The notes under the pieces were generated by a model. That model ran no database searches and had not been told where the DNA came from. It saw only the letters and a list, made by a program, of their open reading frames with translations. From Betaproteobacteria bacterium (GTDB lineage: Bacteria; Pseudomonadota; Gammaproteobacteria; Burkholderiales; Burkholderiaceae_C), in assembly GCA_947453725.1 (NCBI GenBank), contig CANGHH010000008.1:124001-188000 (forward strand): a DNA stretch of 64,000 nt. The letters run 5' to 3'. Of the stretch, positions 2,211-17,049 are shown piece after piece. The position numbers were made by a program, and so were the translations under genes. Each line of letters begins with the position of its first letter. Position 1 is the stretch's first letter.

Positions 2211-4423
2211 TCGAAGAACACGGTGGCCAGCGGGGGCACCGTGATGACGATCGATTGCGGGCGCCCGTGGCTGGTGGTGGCTTCGCTGCGGGCTTCGCCC
2301 AGCGCGGTGCCGACGTTGCCGCCGCCGTAGAAGGCCGAGTCGCTGTTCAGGCATTCGCGCCAGCGGCCCGCCGCCGGCACGCCCAGGCGCAGGCCGTGGT
2401 GAACGGTGGGCGCGAAGTTGCACACCACCAGCATCAGGGCGCCGTCGCGCGATCGGCGCACGAAGCTGAGCAGGCTGCGGCGCGCGTCGTCGTGGTCTAT
2501 CCACTCGAAGCCGTCGCCGCTGAAGTCGACGCTGTACAGCGCCGGGCTGGCCTTGTAGAGCTGGTTCAGGTCGCGAACCCAGCGCTGCAGACCGGCGTGG
2601 TCGGACTGCTGCAGCAGGTGCCAGTCCAGGCTGTGCTCGTGGTTCCACTCGCGGTCCTGGCCGAATTCGCAGCCCATGAAGAGCAGCTTCTTGCCCGGGT
2701 GGCCCCACATGAAACCGTAGTAGGCGCGCAGGTTGGCGAACTGTTGCCAGCGGTCACCGGGCATCTTGCCCAGCATGCTGCCCTTGCCGTGCACGACCTC
2801 GTCGTGGCTGATCGGCAGCACGAAGTTCTCGGTGTAGGCATAGACCAGCCCGAAGGTCATTTCACCGTGGTGGTGAGGGCGATGGATCGGGTCGCGGGCG
2901 ATGTACTGCAGCGTGTCGTGCATCCAGCCCATGTTCCACTTGTAATGGAAACCCAGGCCGCCGGCGTAGGTCGGGCGGCTGACCCCCGGGAAGGCGGTGC
3001 TTTCCTCGGCCAGCGTGACGGCCTGCGGGCGCTCGCCGCCGATGACCTCGTTGGTGCGCTTCAGGAAGGCGATGGCTTCCAGGTTCTCGCGCCCACCATG
3101 GACATTGGGTATCCATTCGCCGGCCTTGCGGCTGTAGTCGCGGTAGAGCATCGACGCGACGGCGTCGACACGCAGGCCGTCGATGCCGTAACGCTCCAGC
3201 CAGTACAGCGCATTGCCGACCAGGAAGTTGCGCACTTCGGTGCGGCCGAAGTTGTAGATCAGCGTGTTCCAGTCGTTGTGGAAGCCCTCGCGCGGGTCGG
3301 CGTATTCGTACAGGTGGGTGCCGTCGAAGCGCGCCAGGCCGTGGGCGTCGGTGGGGAAATGGGCCGGCACCCAGTCCAGCAGCACGCCGATGCCGGCGGC
3401 GTGGGCGCGGGCGATGAAGCGGCTGAAGCCCGCTCCGCTGCCGAACGGGGACGCCGCGTCACCGGGCACCTGGTGGCGCGCGGTGGGTGCGTACAGGCCC
3501 AGCGTCTGGTAGCCCCAGGAACCGTCGAAAGGGTGCTCGCTGATCGGCATCAGTTCGAGGTGGGTGAAGCCCATGTCCTGGGCGTAGGGCAACAACTCGT
3601 CGGCCAGTTCGTCCCAGTTCAGCCAGCGGTTGCCGTCTTTGCGCCGCCAGCTGGCCAGGTGGACCTCGTAGATGCTGACCGGCGCGTCCAGCGCGTTGGC
3701 CTGGTGGCGGGCGGGTGAGGGCGCGACCACCGGCGGCATCGCGGCCACGACGCTGGCCGTGGCCGGACGCAGTTCGGCCTGCCGCGCGTACGGGTCAGCC
3801 TTCTGCGGCAGCAGCCGGCCGGCGCTGTCGAGCAGTTCGAACTTGTAGTGCGCGCCCGCGGCCACCTCGGGCAGGAAGAGTTCCCACACGCCGCACTCAC
3901 GGCGCAGCCGCATCGGGTGGCGGCGGCCGTCCCAGACATTGAAGTCGCCGACCACACTGACCCGGCTGGCGTTCGGTGCCCAGACCGCGAAAGCCGTGCC
4001 GGCCACGCCTTCCAATTCACGCGGCGTGGCACCCAGGATGTCGGAGGGCCGCAGGTGCGAGCCTTCGCCCAGCAGCCAGACGTCCATCTCGCCCAGCACA
4101 CCACCGAAACGGTAGGGGTCTTCCAGCAGCGCCTCGCTGCCGTCGTGCCAGCGCACGCGCAACTGGTACAGGCCGGTGGCGCCGACGGGCCCTTCGAAGA
4201 AGCCGTCGGTGTGGCGCAGGTTCAGCGGCCAGGCGAGGGCGCCGGCCACCACCTGAACCACCTGCGCGCCGGGCAGCAGCGCCCGCACCCAGCGCGATCC
4301 ATCGGCTGCGGTGTGCGGCCCCAGCACGGCGAAGGGGTCGTCGTGGCGGGCCTGCAGCAGCGCGGTCAGCGCCGCGTCGTCCAGGACGCCGGCCGGCGCC
4401 ATCGGGGCAGCTGGCGACGGCAT
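2198..4423 (-). CDS. glgB: 1,4-alpha-glucan branching enzyme
   Basis: This enzyme introduces alpha-1,6 branches during glycogen synthesis. The 741-residue protein has the usual bacterial layout: an N1 domain ([16 protein letters not shown]), a CBM48 domain ([15 protein letters not shown]), and a GH13 barrel with [11 protein letters not shown] (nucleophile Asp near 420), [10 protein letters not shown] (Glu near 473) and [11 protein letters not shown]. The ATG at 4423 shares its A with the glgP stop (TGATG). That supports this start over one 8 codons upstream and suggests translational coupling. It lies between glgP and glgX in one minus-strand operon. No key residue is missing. Confidence 0.97.
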
Positions 4424-12580: not shown

Positions 12581-14605
12581 TCAGTGCGGCGCGAAGTAAC
12601 GGTCGAACCAGGCCAGCGTCCGGCGTTCGACATCCGCCAGCGTGGACGGCTGGCGGAAGCCATGGCCTTCGCCCGGGTAGATCAGCGTCGAGGCGGGCAC
12701 GCCCAGTATCTGCAGGGCGCGGCCGAATTCCTGGGTCTGGGCGGGCGGGCATTCGAGGTCGGCGGCGCCGACGTAGCTGAGCGTCGGTGTCTTCACCTGA
12801 CGGATGAAGTTGATCGGCGACGACTTCGCGTAGACCGCCGGGTCGGCGTAGACCGTGGCGCCGAAGTAGGGCGGCATCCATTCGTTGATGCCGTTCTGGC
12901 CGTAGTAGGACTGCCAGTTGGCGATGCCGGCACCGGCCACCGCGGCCTTGAAGCGCTGGGTCTGCGTCACCGCCCACATGGTCATGAAGCCGCCGTAGCT
13001 GTGACCGGTGATCCCCAGGCGATCGGGGTCTATGGCCTGCGAGGCGATGGCCGCGTCGACGCCGGCCAGGATGTCGCGCAGGTCGCCGCCGCCGAAGTCC
13101 TGGGCATTCATCTGGGTGAAGGCTTCGCCCTGGCCGAAGCTGCCGCGCGGGTTGGGCAGCAGCATCGCGTAGCCCTTGTTCAGCAGCGCGTGCCAGGCGC
13201 CGCTGCCGATGAAGCGAGGCCGGTGCGCGGAGGCCGGGCCGCCGTGGACGGCGACGATCAGCGGCAGCTTGCCCGCGCCCGCACCTTGTGCGCCGCTGGC
13301 GGCCTGCTTCGGCAGCAGCAGCCAGCCCTGGATGGTCAGTCCGTCGCTCTGCCAGCTCAGGCTTTGCGCGCTGAAGGTCTGGTTGACCAGGGTCGCGTTG
13401 CGTCGCGTCAAGTCGCGCCAGTTGCCGGCCTGGCCGAGCTGGATCTCGGGCGCCCGGGTGTAGGACTCGTGCAGGCTGATTTCGGTGCCTGCCGGGCAGC
13501 CGCTGCAGGCCGCCAGCTCGCGCAGCGATTCGGCCGAACTCCACAAGGTGGTCGGTGTCGCCGGTGCGCGGCCTTCGCCCAGGTCGAGGCGCTGCGTCAG
13601 GTCGCCGGCCAGGGCGGTGGCCAGCAGGTGGCCATCGCTGCCGCGCCAGTCGATCGCCGACACCGAGGCCTTGATCCCGGGTGTCAGGTTGCGGGCCGCG
13701 CCGCCGCCGGTGGGCACGACGAAGACGTCGCCGCCAGTGGCGCCGAAATCGCTCATCAGGCCGACGATCAGCGCGGTGCGCTGGCCGTCCGGCGAGACCC
13801 TGGGGTGGGCCAGCTGCTCGCGCGCATTCGCCGGCGCGTAGAGCAGACGCTCCGCGGCCGGGTTGCGCGCGTTGTCGAAAGCATAGAGACGGGCGACCCA
13901 CCACAGGCGGTCGCCGTCACCGGGAGCTGCGGTGGCGACGAAGCCCTTCGCTGCCGGCATCCAGTCGTATTCGTAGACGTAGAGCCCGGGCCGCGAGATC
14001 CAGCGAAGTTGGGTCTGCCCCGGATCGAGCACCGCCAGCCGCTGCAGCGGCGGCAGCGCATCGATATCGCCAGTGACCGGTGCGCCGGCCTCGGTGGCAC
14101 CGACCTCTTTGGTCGCGCCCGCCGTGGCCAGCATCGCCAGTGCGCCGTCGGCGGCATAGCGCATGGACTTGATGGTGCCGTCGAAATCGAGCAGCTTGTT
14201 CGGCTGGGCGCCGGCGTTCGGTGCCACCCGGTAGACCGAGCGCGCGTGGCTGCCCGGCGTGCGCAGCGCAAAGCTCAGCTGCTGGGCGTCAGGCGCCCAG
14301 GCCGGCGAACTGGGCCAACATTCGGGCACCGCGCCGCAGGGCAGGGGCACCGCCAACTCGCGGCTGCCGTCGGCGCTGCGGATGAGCAGCTCGCGCACCA
14401 CCGGCGATCCGCCCTGCGCCGACAGGTCGCCCTCGACCGAGGCCACCCAGCGTCCGTCGGGCGAGATCGCCAGCTCCAGGTAGGCGCGTTGCGCCGGGCT
14501 GGCCGCCCCGGCGTTGCCGCAGGCCAGCAGCAGCGCGCCGAAGGCCGTCCAGCCCCAGCGGCTGGCAGCGTCTCGCCGGGTTGGGTACTCGCCGTGAGCG
14601 CGCAT
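12581..14605 (-). CDS. S9 family serine peptidase (acylaminoacyl/prolyl oligopeptidase-like)
   Basis: A 674-residue peptidase with an N-terminal export signal (WTAFGALLLACGNAGA, ending near 35), a beta-propeller-like middle region with ISPDGRW and VSPDGQRTAL repeats, and a C-terminal alpha/beta-hydrolase domain. The catalytic triad is visible: GHSYGG (Ser), YVGAADLECPP (Asp) and GEGHGF (His). GxxG context HGGPASAH fits the oxyanion region of S9C-type enzymes. It is the first recognisable enzyme after the LexA-controlled promoter at 14.8 kb. The 80-base gap lacks an obvious terminator, so SOS-linked read-through is possible. Substrate is unknown beyond oligopeptides. Confidence 0.92.
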   Translation of the reverse strand: MRAHGEYPTRRDAASRWGWTAFGALLLACGNAGAASPAQRAYLELAISPDGRWVASVEGDLSAQGGSPVVRELLIRSADGSRELAVPLPCGAVPECWPSSPAWAPDAQQLSFALRTPGSHARSVYRVAPNAGAQPNKLLDFDGTIKSMRYAADGALAMLATAGATKEVGATEAGAPVTGDIDALPPLQRLAVLDPGQTQLRWISRPGLYVYEYDWMPAAKGFVATAAPGDGDRLWWVARLYAFDNARNPAAERLLYAPANAREQLAHPRVSPDGQRTALIVGLMSDFGATGGDVFVVPTGGGAARNLTPGIKASVSAIDWRGSDGHLLATALAGDLTQRLDLGEGRAPATPTTLWSSAESLRELAACSGCPAGTEISLHESYTRAPEIQLGQAGNWRDLTRRNATLVNQTFSAQSLSWQSDGLTIQGWLLLPKQAASGAQGAGAGKLPLIVAVHGGPASAHRPRFIGSGAWHALLNKGYAMLLPNPRGSFGQGEAFTQMNAQDFGGGDLRDILAGVDAAIASQAIDPDRLGITGHSYGGFMTMWAVTQTQRFKAAVAGAGIANWQSYYGQNGINEWMPPYFGATVYADPAVYAKSSPINFIRQVKTPTLSYVGAADLECPPAQTQEFGRALQILGVPASTLIYPGEGHGFRQPSTLADVERRTLAWFDRYFAPH

Positions 14606-14685
14606 GGTTCAAGTCTCTCGCTGAGGTGGATGAAGCCGCGGACTCTAGCGCAGGCTTGCTCGGCGGCGCTGTCGGGCCTGGCGCC

Positions 14686-14781
14686 TCAGAACCAGGCCCA
14701 GACCCGGTGCAGCCAGGGCGGCAGGCGATCGGTTTTCGGGCTGTAGTGTTGGCGGTAGTGTTGGCGGTGGGTGCTGTTCAT
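14686..14781 (-). CDS. putative SOS-controlled 31-residue small protein
   Basis: A short open frame beginning MNSTHRQHYRQHY and ending PPWLHRVWAWF. I recognise no family. Support for translation is the AGGAGA ribosome-binding site (14792-14787) with a 5-base spacer to ATG, sitting directly behind a complete promoter with a near-perfect LexA box. The peptide is basic and His/Arg/Tyr-rich at the start and aromatic (three Trp) at the end. It has no full transmembrane helix but could form a membrane-surface helix. A 12-base perfect tandem repeat (14743-14766) encodes the RQHYRQHY duplication. By position it resembles other SOS-induced micro-proteins (SidA, TisB), but no sequence relationship is claimed. 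Confidence 0.6.
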   Translation of the reverse strand: MNSTHRQHYRQHYSPKTDRLPPWLHRVWAWF

Positions 14782-14800
14782 CGGGGTCTCCTGTTTGCCA

Positions 14801-14820
14801 TACTGTACAAAACAACAGTA
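14801..14820 (-). promoter_or_regulatory. LexA (SOS) box
   Basis: The 20 bases read TACTGT-N8-ACAGTA with fully symmetric half-sites. Symmetry extends one further dinucleotide on each side (CATACTGT...ACAGTATG, 14799-14822). This matches the CTGT-N8-ACAG LexA consensus used by E. coli and many beta/gammaproteobacteria. It overlaps the -10 and fills most of the spacer of the promoter driving the 31-codon frame, the classic arrangement for repression. LexA itself is not encoded in this window. Confidence 0.85.
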
Positions 14821-14830
14821 TGGCTGACAA
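14802..14830 (-). promoter_or_regulatory. sigma-70 promoter under LexA control
   Basis: Reading leftward: -35 TTGTCA (14830-14825, 5 of 6 match), an exactly 17-base spacer, then -10 TACAGT (14807-14802, 4 of 6). The predicted start is near 14795, giving a leader of about 14 bases that carries the AGGAGA ribosome-binding site. The downstream S9 and M24 peptidase genes could be served by the same transcript. Confidence 0.7.
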
Positions 14831-14875
14831 GCCCGATTTCAGGTCCCGCCCAGCGACCCTCACTGGGCCCAGCGC

Positions 14876-16927
14876 TCAGGGCTGTCCGTAGCGCTGCGCC
14901 AGCGCGCCGATCAGCCGCACCAGCCCGTCGAGGTCGCGCTGGTCCAGCACTTCGACCGGCGAATGCGAGTAGCGACCGGGCCACGACAGGCCGACGTCGA
15001 TGGCGCCGCGCGCGGCGAAGGCCGAGGCGTCGGTGCCGCCCTGCGTCACGTTGACCTGCAGCGGAATGCGCTCGGCCTCGGCCAGCGCCGTGATACGGCT
15101 GATGACCGCAGCCGGCACCACGGTGCGGCTGTCCAGGCCGCGCAGCACCGGGCCGTTGCCGAGCGGCGCGTGGGCCAGGTAGGGCAGGTCCAGCGGCGCC
15201 GCGGTCGAGACGAAGGTGTCGATCGCGAAGGCCACCTGCGGCCGCAGGCGTTCGGCCAGCGCGCGGGCCCCGCCCAGGCCGACTTCCTCGTCCACGCTGA
15301 AGGCGAAAGTCACGCGGTTGGCCACCTTCGCGGGGTCGATCTGGCGCAAGGCCAGCAGCAGCGCAGCCACGCCGGCGCGGTCGTCCATCGAACGGCCGCT
15401 GGCCCGCGGCGGCGCCAGACCGACCAGGGCCTTGCGCACGGTCAGTGTCTGCCCGACCTGGACCCCCAGGGCGCGCGTCTCGGCGGCCGTCCGGGTGCCG
15501 AAATAAAGGCCCAGGCTGGCCAGTTCGGGCTGGCCCCGGGTGGCGCTGCCGTAAGCCGTGCGCGGCGAGATGACCGCTGCCACCGCACCGCCGGGCGTCA
15601 TCACGCGCACCGGATGGGCCTCGTACAGCGACAGGTAGACGCCGCCGGCGACCTGGATGGCGGCGCTGCCGTCGTCGCGGATGGCGGTGACCTCGAAGCC
15701 GACCTCGTCCATGTGGGCGATGAACAGCAGATCCTGGCCGCCCTGGCCGAAACTGACCGTGATGTTGCCCTTGGCGTCGACCTCGGGTCGGGCCCAGGCC
15801 GGCAGCAGGCCGAGGACCACCTGGCGCACGGGCGCTTCGGCACCCGAAACGCCGTAGGACTCGATCAGCGGCTGCAGCACCGTGTAGCTGCCGGTCAGCG
15901 GGGCCGGCCGGTTGCCGATTGCGGGCCCTGCGGCGGCATTGGCAGTGGCGCCATCGGCCGCGCCAGCCCGCCAGGCGGCCAAGCCGGCGCCAGCGGCCAG
16001 TTCGCCGGCCAGCCGCGTGATGTCGGCCGTGGCCACGACCTCGACCGGCGTGTCGGCGAACAAGACCGGCACCGCCGCGGTCGACAGGACCACGCCGGCC
16101 CAGCCGGCCGGCGCTTCGGGCAACGCGCCGCCGCGGCCGATCAGCACCGCGCTTTGCGGCCGGATCGCTTGCGCCAGGCGCGCCAGACCGCGGCCGCCGA
16201 ACTGCGTTTGCGTGACCCAGGCCAGTGTCAGTGTGCCCGGCACCGCCGTATCGCCAGGCAGGCCGCGCAAGACCTCGACCAGGGCCTGCGCGCCGGCGCG
16301 CAGCTGGCTGGCGACGCCGGCCACGTGGCCCTGGGCCAGCAACTGGCTGCGTTCGCGCAGGCTGACGGCGTCCAGCATGCGGATGCCCAGCGCAGCGACG
16401 CCGGCGGCGTTGCTGGCGCCGACGTCGACCCACAGGTCCTGCAGGTCCTTGATGCGCGCCACCTCGGCGGCTGCGGTCAGTCGGCTGAGGTGGGTCGACG
16501 GCGTGGCGGTGACCCCGTCGACCAGCCGGCCCGAGGCCGTGCTGACCTGCACCGGCTGGCCGACCATGAACTGGTCGCGCAGCGGCTGCGCCACGGCGGC
16601 CGGGCCGGTGGTGTGCCGGTGCAGGCGCAGGAAGCCGTCGTCGGTGATGCGCGAGACGACGTAGCCCGGCTCGTCCAGCGCCGCCACCAGGGCCAGGTGG
16701 GGCTCGCCGCGGCCCAGGGTGAGGCGCAGATTGCCGGCCTCGTCGACCGTCGCGCGGGCCTGCGCCCAGGCCGGCAACTGGCCGCGCACGGCCTCGCGAA
16801 CCGCGTCTTCGTGCCCGGCGACGCCGGCGGTCTGCAGCAGTGGCAGGAAGCGCTGTGCCAGGTCCTGCGCCCAGGCCCCCTGATTGGCGAGCAACAGGAT
16901 GACGGTGGCGAGCAGACGGGTGCGCAT
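14876..16927 (-). CDS. secreted double-length M42-type aminopeptidase with a degenerate first copy
   Basis: A 683-residue exported protein (signal peptide MRTRLLATVILLLANQGAWA) built from two tandem M42 glutamyl-aminopeptidase-like units. The second unit (about 344-683) keeps the active-site set: AHMDEVGFEV (His/Asp near 405), SMDDRAG (Asp near 513), VDEEVGLGGA (Glu pair near 545), IDTFVS (Asp) and YSHSPVE (His near 655). In the first unit the matching places read AALDEPGYV without the His, VTQTQFGGRG instead of the Glu pair, and no DDRAG, so it cannot bind the metals normally. Family members are usually about 350 residues. ATG at 16927 gives the signal peptide. Peptide substrate inferred. 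Confidence 0.85.
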   Translation of the reverse strand: MRTRLLATVILLLANQGAWAQDLAQRFLPLLQTAGVAGHEDAVREAVRGQLPAWAQARATVDEAGNLRLTLGRGEPHLALVAALDEPGYVVSRITDDGFLRLHRHTTGPAAVAQPLRDQFMVGQPVQVSTASGRLVDGVTATPSTHLSRLTAAAEVARIKDLQDLWVDVGASNAAGVAALGIRMLDAVSLRERSQLLAQGHVAGVASQLRAGAQALVEVLRGLPGDTAVPGTLTLAWVTQTQFGGRGLARLAQAIRPQSAVLIGRGGALPEAPAGWAGVVLSTAAVPVLFADTPVEVVATADITRLAGELAAGAGLAAWRAGAADGATANAAAGPAIGNRPAPLTGSYTVLQPLIESYGVSGAEAPVRQVVLGLLPAWARPEVDAKGNITVSFGQGGQDLLFIAHMDEVGFEVTAIRDDGSAAIQVAGGVYLSLYEAHPVRVMTPGGAVAAVISPRTAYGSATRGQPELASLGLYFGTRTAAETRALGVQVGQTLTVRKALVGLAPPRASGRSMDDRAGVAALLLALRQIDPAKVANRVTFAFSVDEEVGLGGARALAERLRPQVAFAIDTFVSTAAPLDLPYLAHAPLGNGPVLRGLDSRTVVPAAVISRITALAEAERIPLQVNVTQGGTDASAFAARGAIDVGLSWPGRYSHSPVEVLDQRDLDGLVRLIGALAQRYGQP

Positions 16928-17049
16928 GTCGAGAGCCGGACAACAAGGGGCGCCGACGATAACGCAGCCCCCTTCGCCGTCCGCGCGCGGCCCCGGCGCA
17001 GCCACGCTATCGTTGCGGCCTCTGCCGCGCTGGCCGTCGAAAGCTGTTG

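Follow-up and report, generated by a model that had tools for sequence, protein, structure and literature searches.

A conserved tryptophan-rich micro-protein gene behind a LexA box in a family of Burkholderiales

In the window, by which we mean the whole stretch of 64,000 nucleotides that was analysed, a short reading frame lies in a gap of 270 bases between the genes for an M42 peptidase-like and an S9 prolyl oligopeptidase-like protein, and it is preceded by a promoter, a LexA (SOS) box and a Shine-Dalgarno sequence, as given below in the direction of reading.

14876..17005, minus strand: gene for the M42 peptidase-like protein, upstream, ending 45 bases before the -35 hexamer (open reading frame list; Pfam PF05343, E 1.1e-80)
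14825..14830, minus strand: -35 hexamer TTGTCA (sequence and promoter scan)
14801..14820, minus strand: LexA (SOS) box TACTGTTGTTTTGTACAGTA (exact pattern match)
14802..14807, minus strand: -10 hexamer TACAGT, within the right half of the LexA box (sequence and promoter scan)
14787..14792, minus strand: Shine-Dalgarno sequence AGGAGA, 5 bases 5' of the ATG (sequence)
14686..14781, minus strand: micro-protein gene, 31 codons plus stop, peptide MNSTHRQHYRQHYSPKTDRLPPWLHRVWAWF (sequence, homologues, selection test, predicted helix at residues 22-30)
12581..14605, minus strand: gene for the S9 prolyl oligopeptidase-like protein, downstream, starting 80 bases past the stop of the micro-ORF (open reading frame list; Pfam PF00326, E 2e-48)

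The micro-ORF opens with an ATG at 14781 on the minus strand and closes with a TGA that ends at 14686, so that the product has 31 residues, and the -35 and -10 hexamers stand 17 bases apart. The LexA box reads TACTGT-TGTTTTGT-ACAGTA, where the two arms are exactly inverted and the eight central bases are not. All of these elements had been named by the sequence-only reading, from the -35 hexamer and its spacer down to the 31-codon frame, and each is correct base for base. A promoter scan of 14500-15000 returned a single site, namely the promoter at the LexA box (shuffled sequences gave a mean of 0.0, sd 0.1), and no promoter-like site on the opposite strand of this region. The box overlaps the sigma-70 promoter at the -10 element, as fits a gene of the LexA (SOS) regulon. 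Across the genome of 4.4 Mb the pattern TACTGT-N8-ACAG occurs at 2 sites, the box of the micro-ORF and one other, where the two rows on C8 are counted as one site read on both strands. A looser scan with three mismatches allowed found 2 boxes against 3.32 expected, which is no better than chance, and the strength of the box thus lies in its exact match and its promoter geometry.

As a comparison with relatives, the 31 residues were searched by tblastn against 150 genomes of the same bacterial family, and 80 of the 150 gave a match at E <= 1; by eye these are mostly chance matches, among which a set of C-terminally anchored relatives stands out. At least six of the matches contain an internal stop; their upstream regions resemble each other, and they seem to represent one conserved gene in another reading frame. 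A profile was then built from 20 of the C-terminally anchored relatives and applied with a cut-off of E 0.001. It matches in 66 of 399 sampled genomes of the family, a figure that includes at least one doubtful genome (G049, with L136 at E 8e-4, below the score of 22 bits used later), and these fall in 31 of 141 genera; the other 333 genomes have no match at this threshold. In the genus of the window's own genome the micro-protein is present in five of the six sampled genomes, the window's included, and G094 is the one without it. When the sample was widened to the order (399 genomes), 50 genomes matched at E <= 0.05, but just two of these matches are convincing, the own genome and G091, both from the same family, and in the class sample the single match among 274 genomes is the own genome. 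The micro-protein family therefore looks restricted to this bacterial family, with the reservation that the profile derives from this same family and that scoring was limited, in most genomes, to 20 to 30 candidates. As for the records named Rhizobacter, Piscinibacter and Aquincola, the micro-ORF DNA in them is identical to copies in genomes of the family, which places the order as Burkholderiales; Aquincola tertiaricarbonis (L098) is one culturable carrier of the gene.

For the analyses that follow, the 138 loci were reduced to 120 at 14 bits or more, to 91 distinct ones, and to 71 that reach 22 bits and do not exceed 45 residues; L037 was dropped since it is without the C-terminal motif, leaving 70 non-redundant homologues with start codons picked by a simple Shine-Dalgarno rule. 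L006, whose start is unclear, was omitted from profile A1, yet its place is counted in the 70. Two further candidates were set aside: L036 (L036:77-187, from another family of the order) has a RQHYTPKPAPIPRW start followed by a hydrophobic stretch and no box scoring 17 or more, and is probably a chance match, and L052, also with no box at that score, was treated as chance.

The frame bears the mark of purifying selection. Over 21 independent pairs of related copies, pS is 0.374 against a pN of 0.114 (Fisher P about 1e-29, with sites treated as counts), and the differences at the first, second and third codon positions number 80, 56 and 165, of 567 each. Members of the family range from 26 to 40 residues with a net charge from +1 to +7, and carry two conserved motifs, RQxYxP in the N-terminal arm and PxWLxR(V/I/L)WxW(L/F) at the C-terminus. 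Counted from the end, P(-11) is found in 70 of 70 homologues, W(-9) in 67, W(-4) in 66, W(-2) in 69 and a final L or F in 68, numbers that are partly built in, as the homologues were found by a profile of that very motif. Such a tight motif with a fixed C-terminus suggests, as far as sequence can tell, one defined docking surface or target.

It could be supposed that the peptide is a leader or attenuator for the S9 peptidase gene, which begins 80 bases downstream on the same strand. The amino-acid sequence and the C-terminus are conserved, however, which a leader would not need, and the downstream genes vary from locus to locus apart from a protein that we call B and, at three of them, a gene for a DNA polymerase IV-like protein; the S9 gene is not seen as a shared neighbour among the 25 largest groups of the neighbour comparison. 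A leader was rejected on the ground that the downstream genes are not common to the loci, and is in our estimate very improbable.

Almost all of these copies keep the control switch as well. We scored 20-mers against an E. coli-type consensus, and called a box at 17 or more of 26. A LexA-like box lies within 150 bp upstream of the start in 61 of the 70 homologues (61 of 71 before L037 was dropped) against 8 of 1217 control windows, and within 500 bp in 69 of 70 against 10 of 685, where the control windows were drawn at random from the same loci and so are mostly coding DNA, not matched intergenic DNA. Among the 50 homologues outside the profile seed the corresponding counts are 44 and 49. Of the 61 homologues with a close box, 29 have at least two windows that score 17 or higher. 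As for the best -10-like hexamer in these 61, it overlaps the right half of the start-proximal box in 29 and the left edge of that box in 24, a geometry for which no control was run. Nine homologues have no box that close: the one in L086 (the same place as L019) is about 180 bases and that in L103 about 170 bases upstream of the micro-ORF, and in L074, L116, L120, L122, L124 and L129 the box precedes gene B, at a distance of some 215 to 485 bases from the micro-ORF. In L105, where the micro-ORF comes after B, the 500 bp upstream contain no box scoring 17 or higher. The window's own genome encodes a LexA (LexA DNA-binding domain, E 7.2e-25), and just upstream of this lexA there are two sites, a CTG-N10-CAG site scoring 17.5 and an imperfect one scoring 18.5, which would be compatible with the same type of box. 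In PMC6595937, CTGT-N8-ACAG is given as the usual LexA box of Betaproteobacteria, with credit to a 2015 paper.

The comparison across relatives, which the sequence-only reading had proposed as its check, thus finds frame and LexA box both conserved across genera. Many spurious frames are present in the region, as is usual for GC-rich DNA, and one might regard the micro-ORF as one more of them beside a chance box; but this joint conservation, together with the purifying selection, makes chance untenable, as the earlier argument from the textbook layout had held, and leaves such an explanation a practically negligible probability. The same conservation over many genera and the same selection strongly support the earlier proposal of a LexA-controlled, SOS-induced small protein. 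Judging from these comparisons, the micro-ORF is almost certainly a gene, translated and under the control of LexA, and the conserved micro-protein probably does a real job upon DNA breakage.

The product had been called unrecognised, and so it proved in the protein-family libraries searched: the peptide has no match in Pfam up to E 1 and none in NCBIfam, PHROGs and PADLOC return 0 families for it and two homologues, and no sequence of the PDB matches. A conserved gene of about 30 codons is thus without an entry in the four protein-family libraries searched. As far as titles and the beginnings of abstracts can tell, the papers found in the literature searches give no recognisable description of the family, and the micro-protein represents a conserved, apparently undescribed family in these relatives. 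PMC3323433 reports LexA-regulated hypothetical genes, hypA and hypB, predicted in Betaproteobacteria with multiple chromosomes; like the micro-protein they are predicted LexA targets of the same class with no function assigned, while hypA is confined there to multi-chromosome species and hypB to Burkholderia, and they can be set beside the micro-protein and B by description only. A phage origin was also considered and rejected, given no PHROGs family, no relative in viral contigs (alignment A2) and one irrelevant phage match at E 8.

Concerning the shape of the peptide, an AlphaFold prediction made with nine sequences gives an arm of low confidence with a short helix at 9-12, followed by a helix at 22-30; the mean pLDDT is 86 for residues 21-30, and overall the pLDDT is 68 and the pTM 0.22. 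In 24 of 70 homologues the hydrophobic moment over the last 10 residues ranks among the top 5% of shuffles (mean z 1.3), and that of the own peptide, 0.49, is below the mean of 0.62, so the amphipathicity is modest. No membrane-spanning stretch is seen in the 70 homologues, whose best 19-residue Kyte-Doolittle means run from -1.42 to 0.42, with -0.71 for the own peptide.

This hydropathy sets the micro-protein apart from several known small SOS proteins, to which no homology is claimed. SidA of Caulobacter, YneA of Bacillus and SosA of Staphylococcus have a transmembrane segment, and SidA is similar in size to the micro-protein; TisB of E. coli has about 30 residues, sits across the membrane and is controlled by an antisense RNA. 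The first three resemble the micro-protein in being small and SOS-induced, whereas they are membrane division inhibitors with a transmembrane helix, which is not detectable in the micro-protein. TisB and DinQ, toxic membrane peptides of E. coli, share with it LexA control and small size; DinQ too is membrane-spanning and under antisense-RNA control, in contrast to the short predicted 5' leader and the missing spanning stretch of the micro-protein. Without a hydrophobic 19-residue stretch in any of the 70 homologues, a spanning membrane peptide of the TisB, SidA or YneA type is disfavoured.

A peripheral counterpart of TisB would be another matter, that is, a cationic peptide rich in Trp and Arg that, once induced, inserts sideways into the inner leaflet and causes membrane depolarisation and slower growth. 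The cationic, Trp-rich C-terminal helix with its modest amphipathicity would suit such a damaging peptide, but none of the 70 peptides can span a membrane by hydropathy, and RQxYxP and the invariant proline appear to be conserved beyond what a lytic peptide would need; we consider this explanation unlikely. That the micro-protein acts by binding another protein, as a micro-effector, is on balance the side to which we lean.

In the neighbour comparison, among its 25 largest groups, gene content next to the micro-ORF varies between loci, and the most widely shared neighbour is protein B, found at 11 loci, where it precedes the micro-ORF 7 times and follows it 4 times. B has 65-70 amino acids with the pattern V/MNAPLLPEIL...RYVWEGRFGSMLIEVxDGxAYVNGQxVEP. 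By tblastn in selected loci, so that more loci adjoining B may exist, B also follows the micro-ORF in L088, L092 (at 4143-4349), L095 and L096, and L097 has a match that is weaker and incomplete. Its sequences have no Pfam match above the cut-off and none in NCBIfam, one of them has none in PHROGs or PADLOC, and no match to B is found in plasmids; the predicted fold is a helix with a small beta-meander, for which the PDB offers nothing better than E 0.5. From these sequences B appears to be a second undescribed small SOS protein family, which may stand alone behind its own box or beside the micro-ORF in either order.

Such a recurrent neighbourhood might mean that the two form one SOS module, in which the micro-protein acts with B as a partner, or as effector and antagonist. 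Copies of B away from the micro-ORF do have a LexA box in L143, L144, L146 and L147, which favours it; but within 400 bp no box scoring at least 17.5 is seen for L148, L152 and L153, which are weaker matches, B turned up in just 9 of the 150 family genomes, it is not found in the window's own genome, and some genomes carry it with no micro-ORF adjoining. We consider a two-part module rather unlikely.

Another neighbour might point to DNA synthesis. In L076, L077 and L083, from two genera, an SOS box precedes the micro-ORF, and directly after it comes a DNA polymerase IV-like gene of the same orientation; the scan covered the first 230 residues of the L076 copy, which match DNA polymerase IV models at E 1.1e-42, below the whole-protein cut-offs. 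A second polymerase was met on a plasmid. The mobilizable plasmid pACDW039_1 of Acidovorax sp. DW039 carries an unannotated homologue (L139:3957-4078; a weak match, E 7) with a LexA box just upstream that scores 22.5 of 26, and this homologue adjoins a divergent gene annotated as DNA polymerase II. It is the one real-looking match of the plasmid searches, beside seven weak ones in another search and none in two more. One of these two was made with the plasmid's own peptide, and given its empty result the BLAST low-complexity filter probably hides some homologues. Both polymerase neighbours would fit a modulator that acts on the polymerases of the SOS response or on the machinery of recombination, with a polymerase, the sliding clamp or RecA as its docking site. 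The loci concerned are few, however, no such gene appears in the other large neighbour groups listed, and the micro-protein is not known to have a recognised clamp-binding motif, which also counts against this alternative; we hold it to be improbable, at about the same level as membrane damage.

There remains the comparison with SulA, a LexA-repressed, DNA-damage-induced inhibitor of FtsZ that has no transmembrane segment. SulA and the micro-protein thus share LexA-type control and the lack of a transmembrane segment, and differ in that SulA is far larger; the peptide has no match to the SulA family PF03846 (Pfam, up to E 1). In the 399 genomes of the family the SulA model matches in 63, in frames of at least 220 amino acids except for two short ones that hold stops, these lengths being those of open frames and not proven protein lengths. 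What is presumably the start of an ImuB-like protein, called by its motif, follows in 6 of 8 fetched loci, and for this reason the matches, including L154-L159, look like ImuA. No clear stand-alone SulA is then found by this model in the 399 genomes.

Several SOS-induced small proteins halt division, and since they do so and no clear stand-alone SulA is seen in the family, to hold back division is the most plausible single job for the micro-protein and the first choice among its possible roles, while such a division checkpoint is still to be taken as tentative. The 333 genomes without a match to the peptide are also without a clear stand-alone SulA, and hence the peptide does not simply fill a gap left by SulA.

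To explain all of the above, we favour, with a probability of about 0.35, a stand-alone gene of the SOS regulon, whose LexA-repressed micro-protein docks by a Trp-rich helix and perhaps halts division. LexA bound at the box over the -10 element would block transcription, and after cleavage of LexA the strong Shine-Dalgarno sequence would drive translation. The product is predicted to consist of a basic N-terminal arm with RQxYxP, mostly of low confidence, and a short helix that runs to the very C-terminus. The Trp-rich helix may dock on the inner membrane, at its cytoplasmic face, or into a hydrophobic groove, the RQxYxP arm may grip a protein partner, and the outcome would be that cell division is held back during DNA repair. 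How betaproteobacteria with no recognisable SulA pause division after DNA damage is a question to which the papers found in the literature searches gave no answer, and this micro-protein family provides genes, under a clear control switch, that can be put to the test. In a broader and doubtful form, the micro-protein could be an undescribed, lineage-specific SOS effector, peripheral and non-spanning, that blocks division or some other process of the envelope in Burkholderiales without SulA, sometimes together with B as a mobile two-gene module. In one genome, G066, the pair of B and the micro-ORF is present in three copies (L116, L120 and L124).
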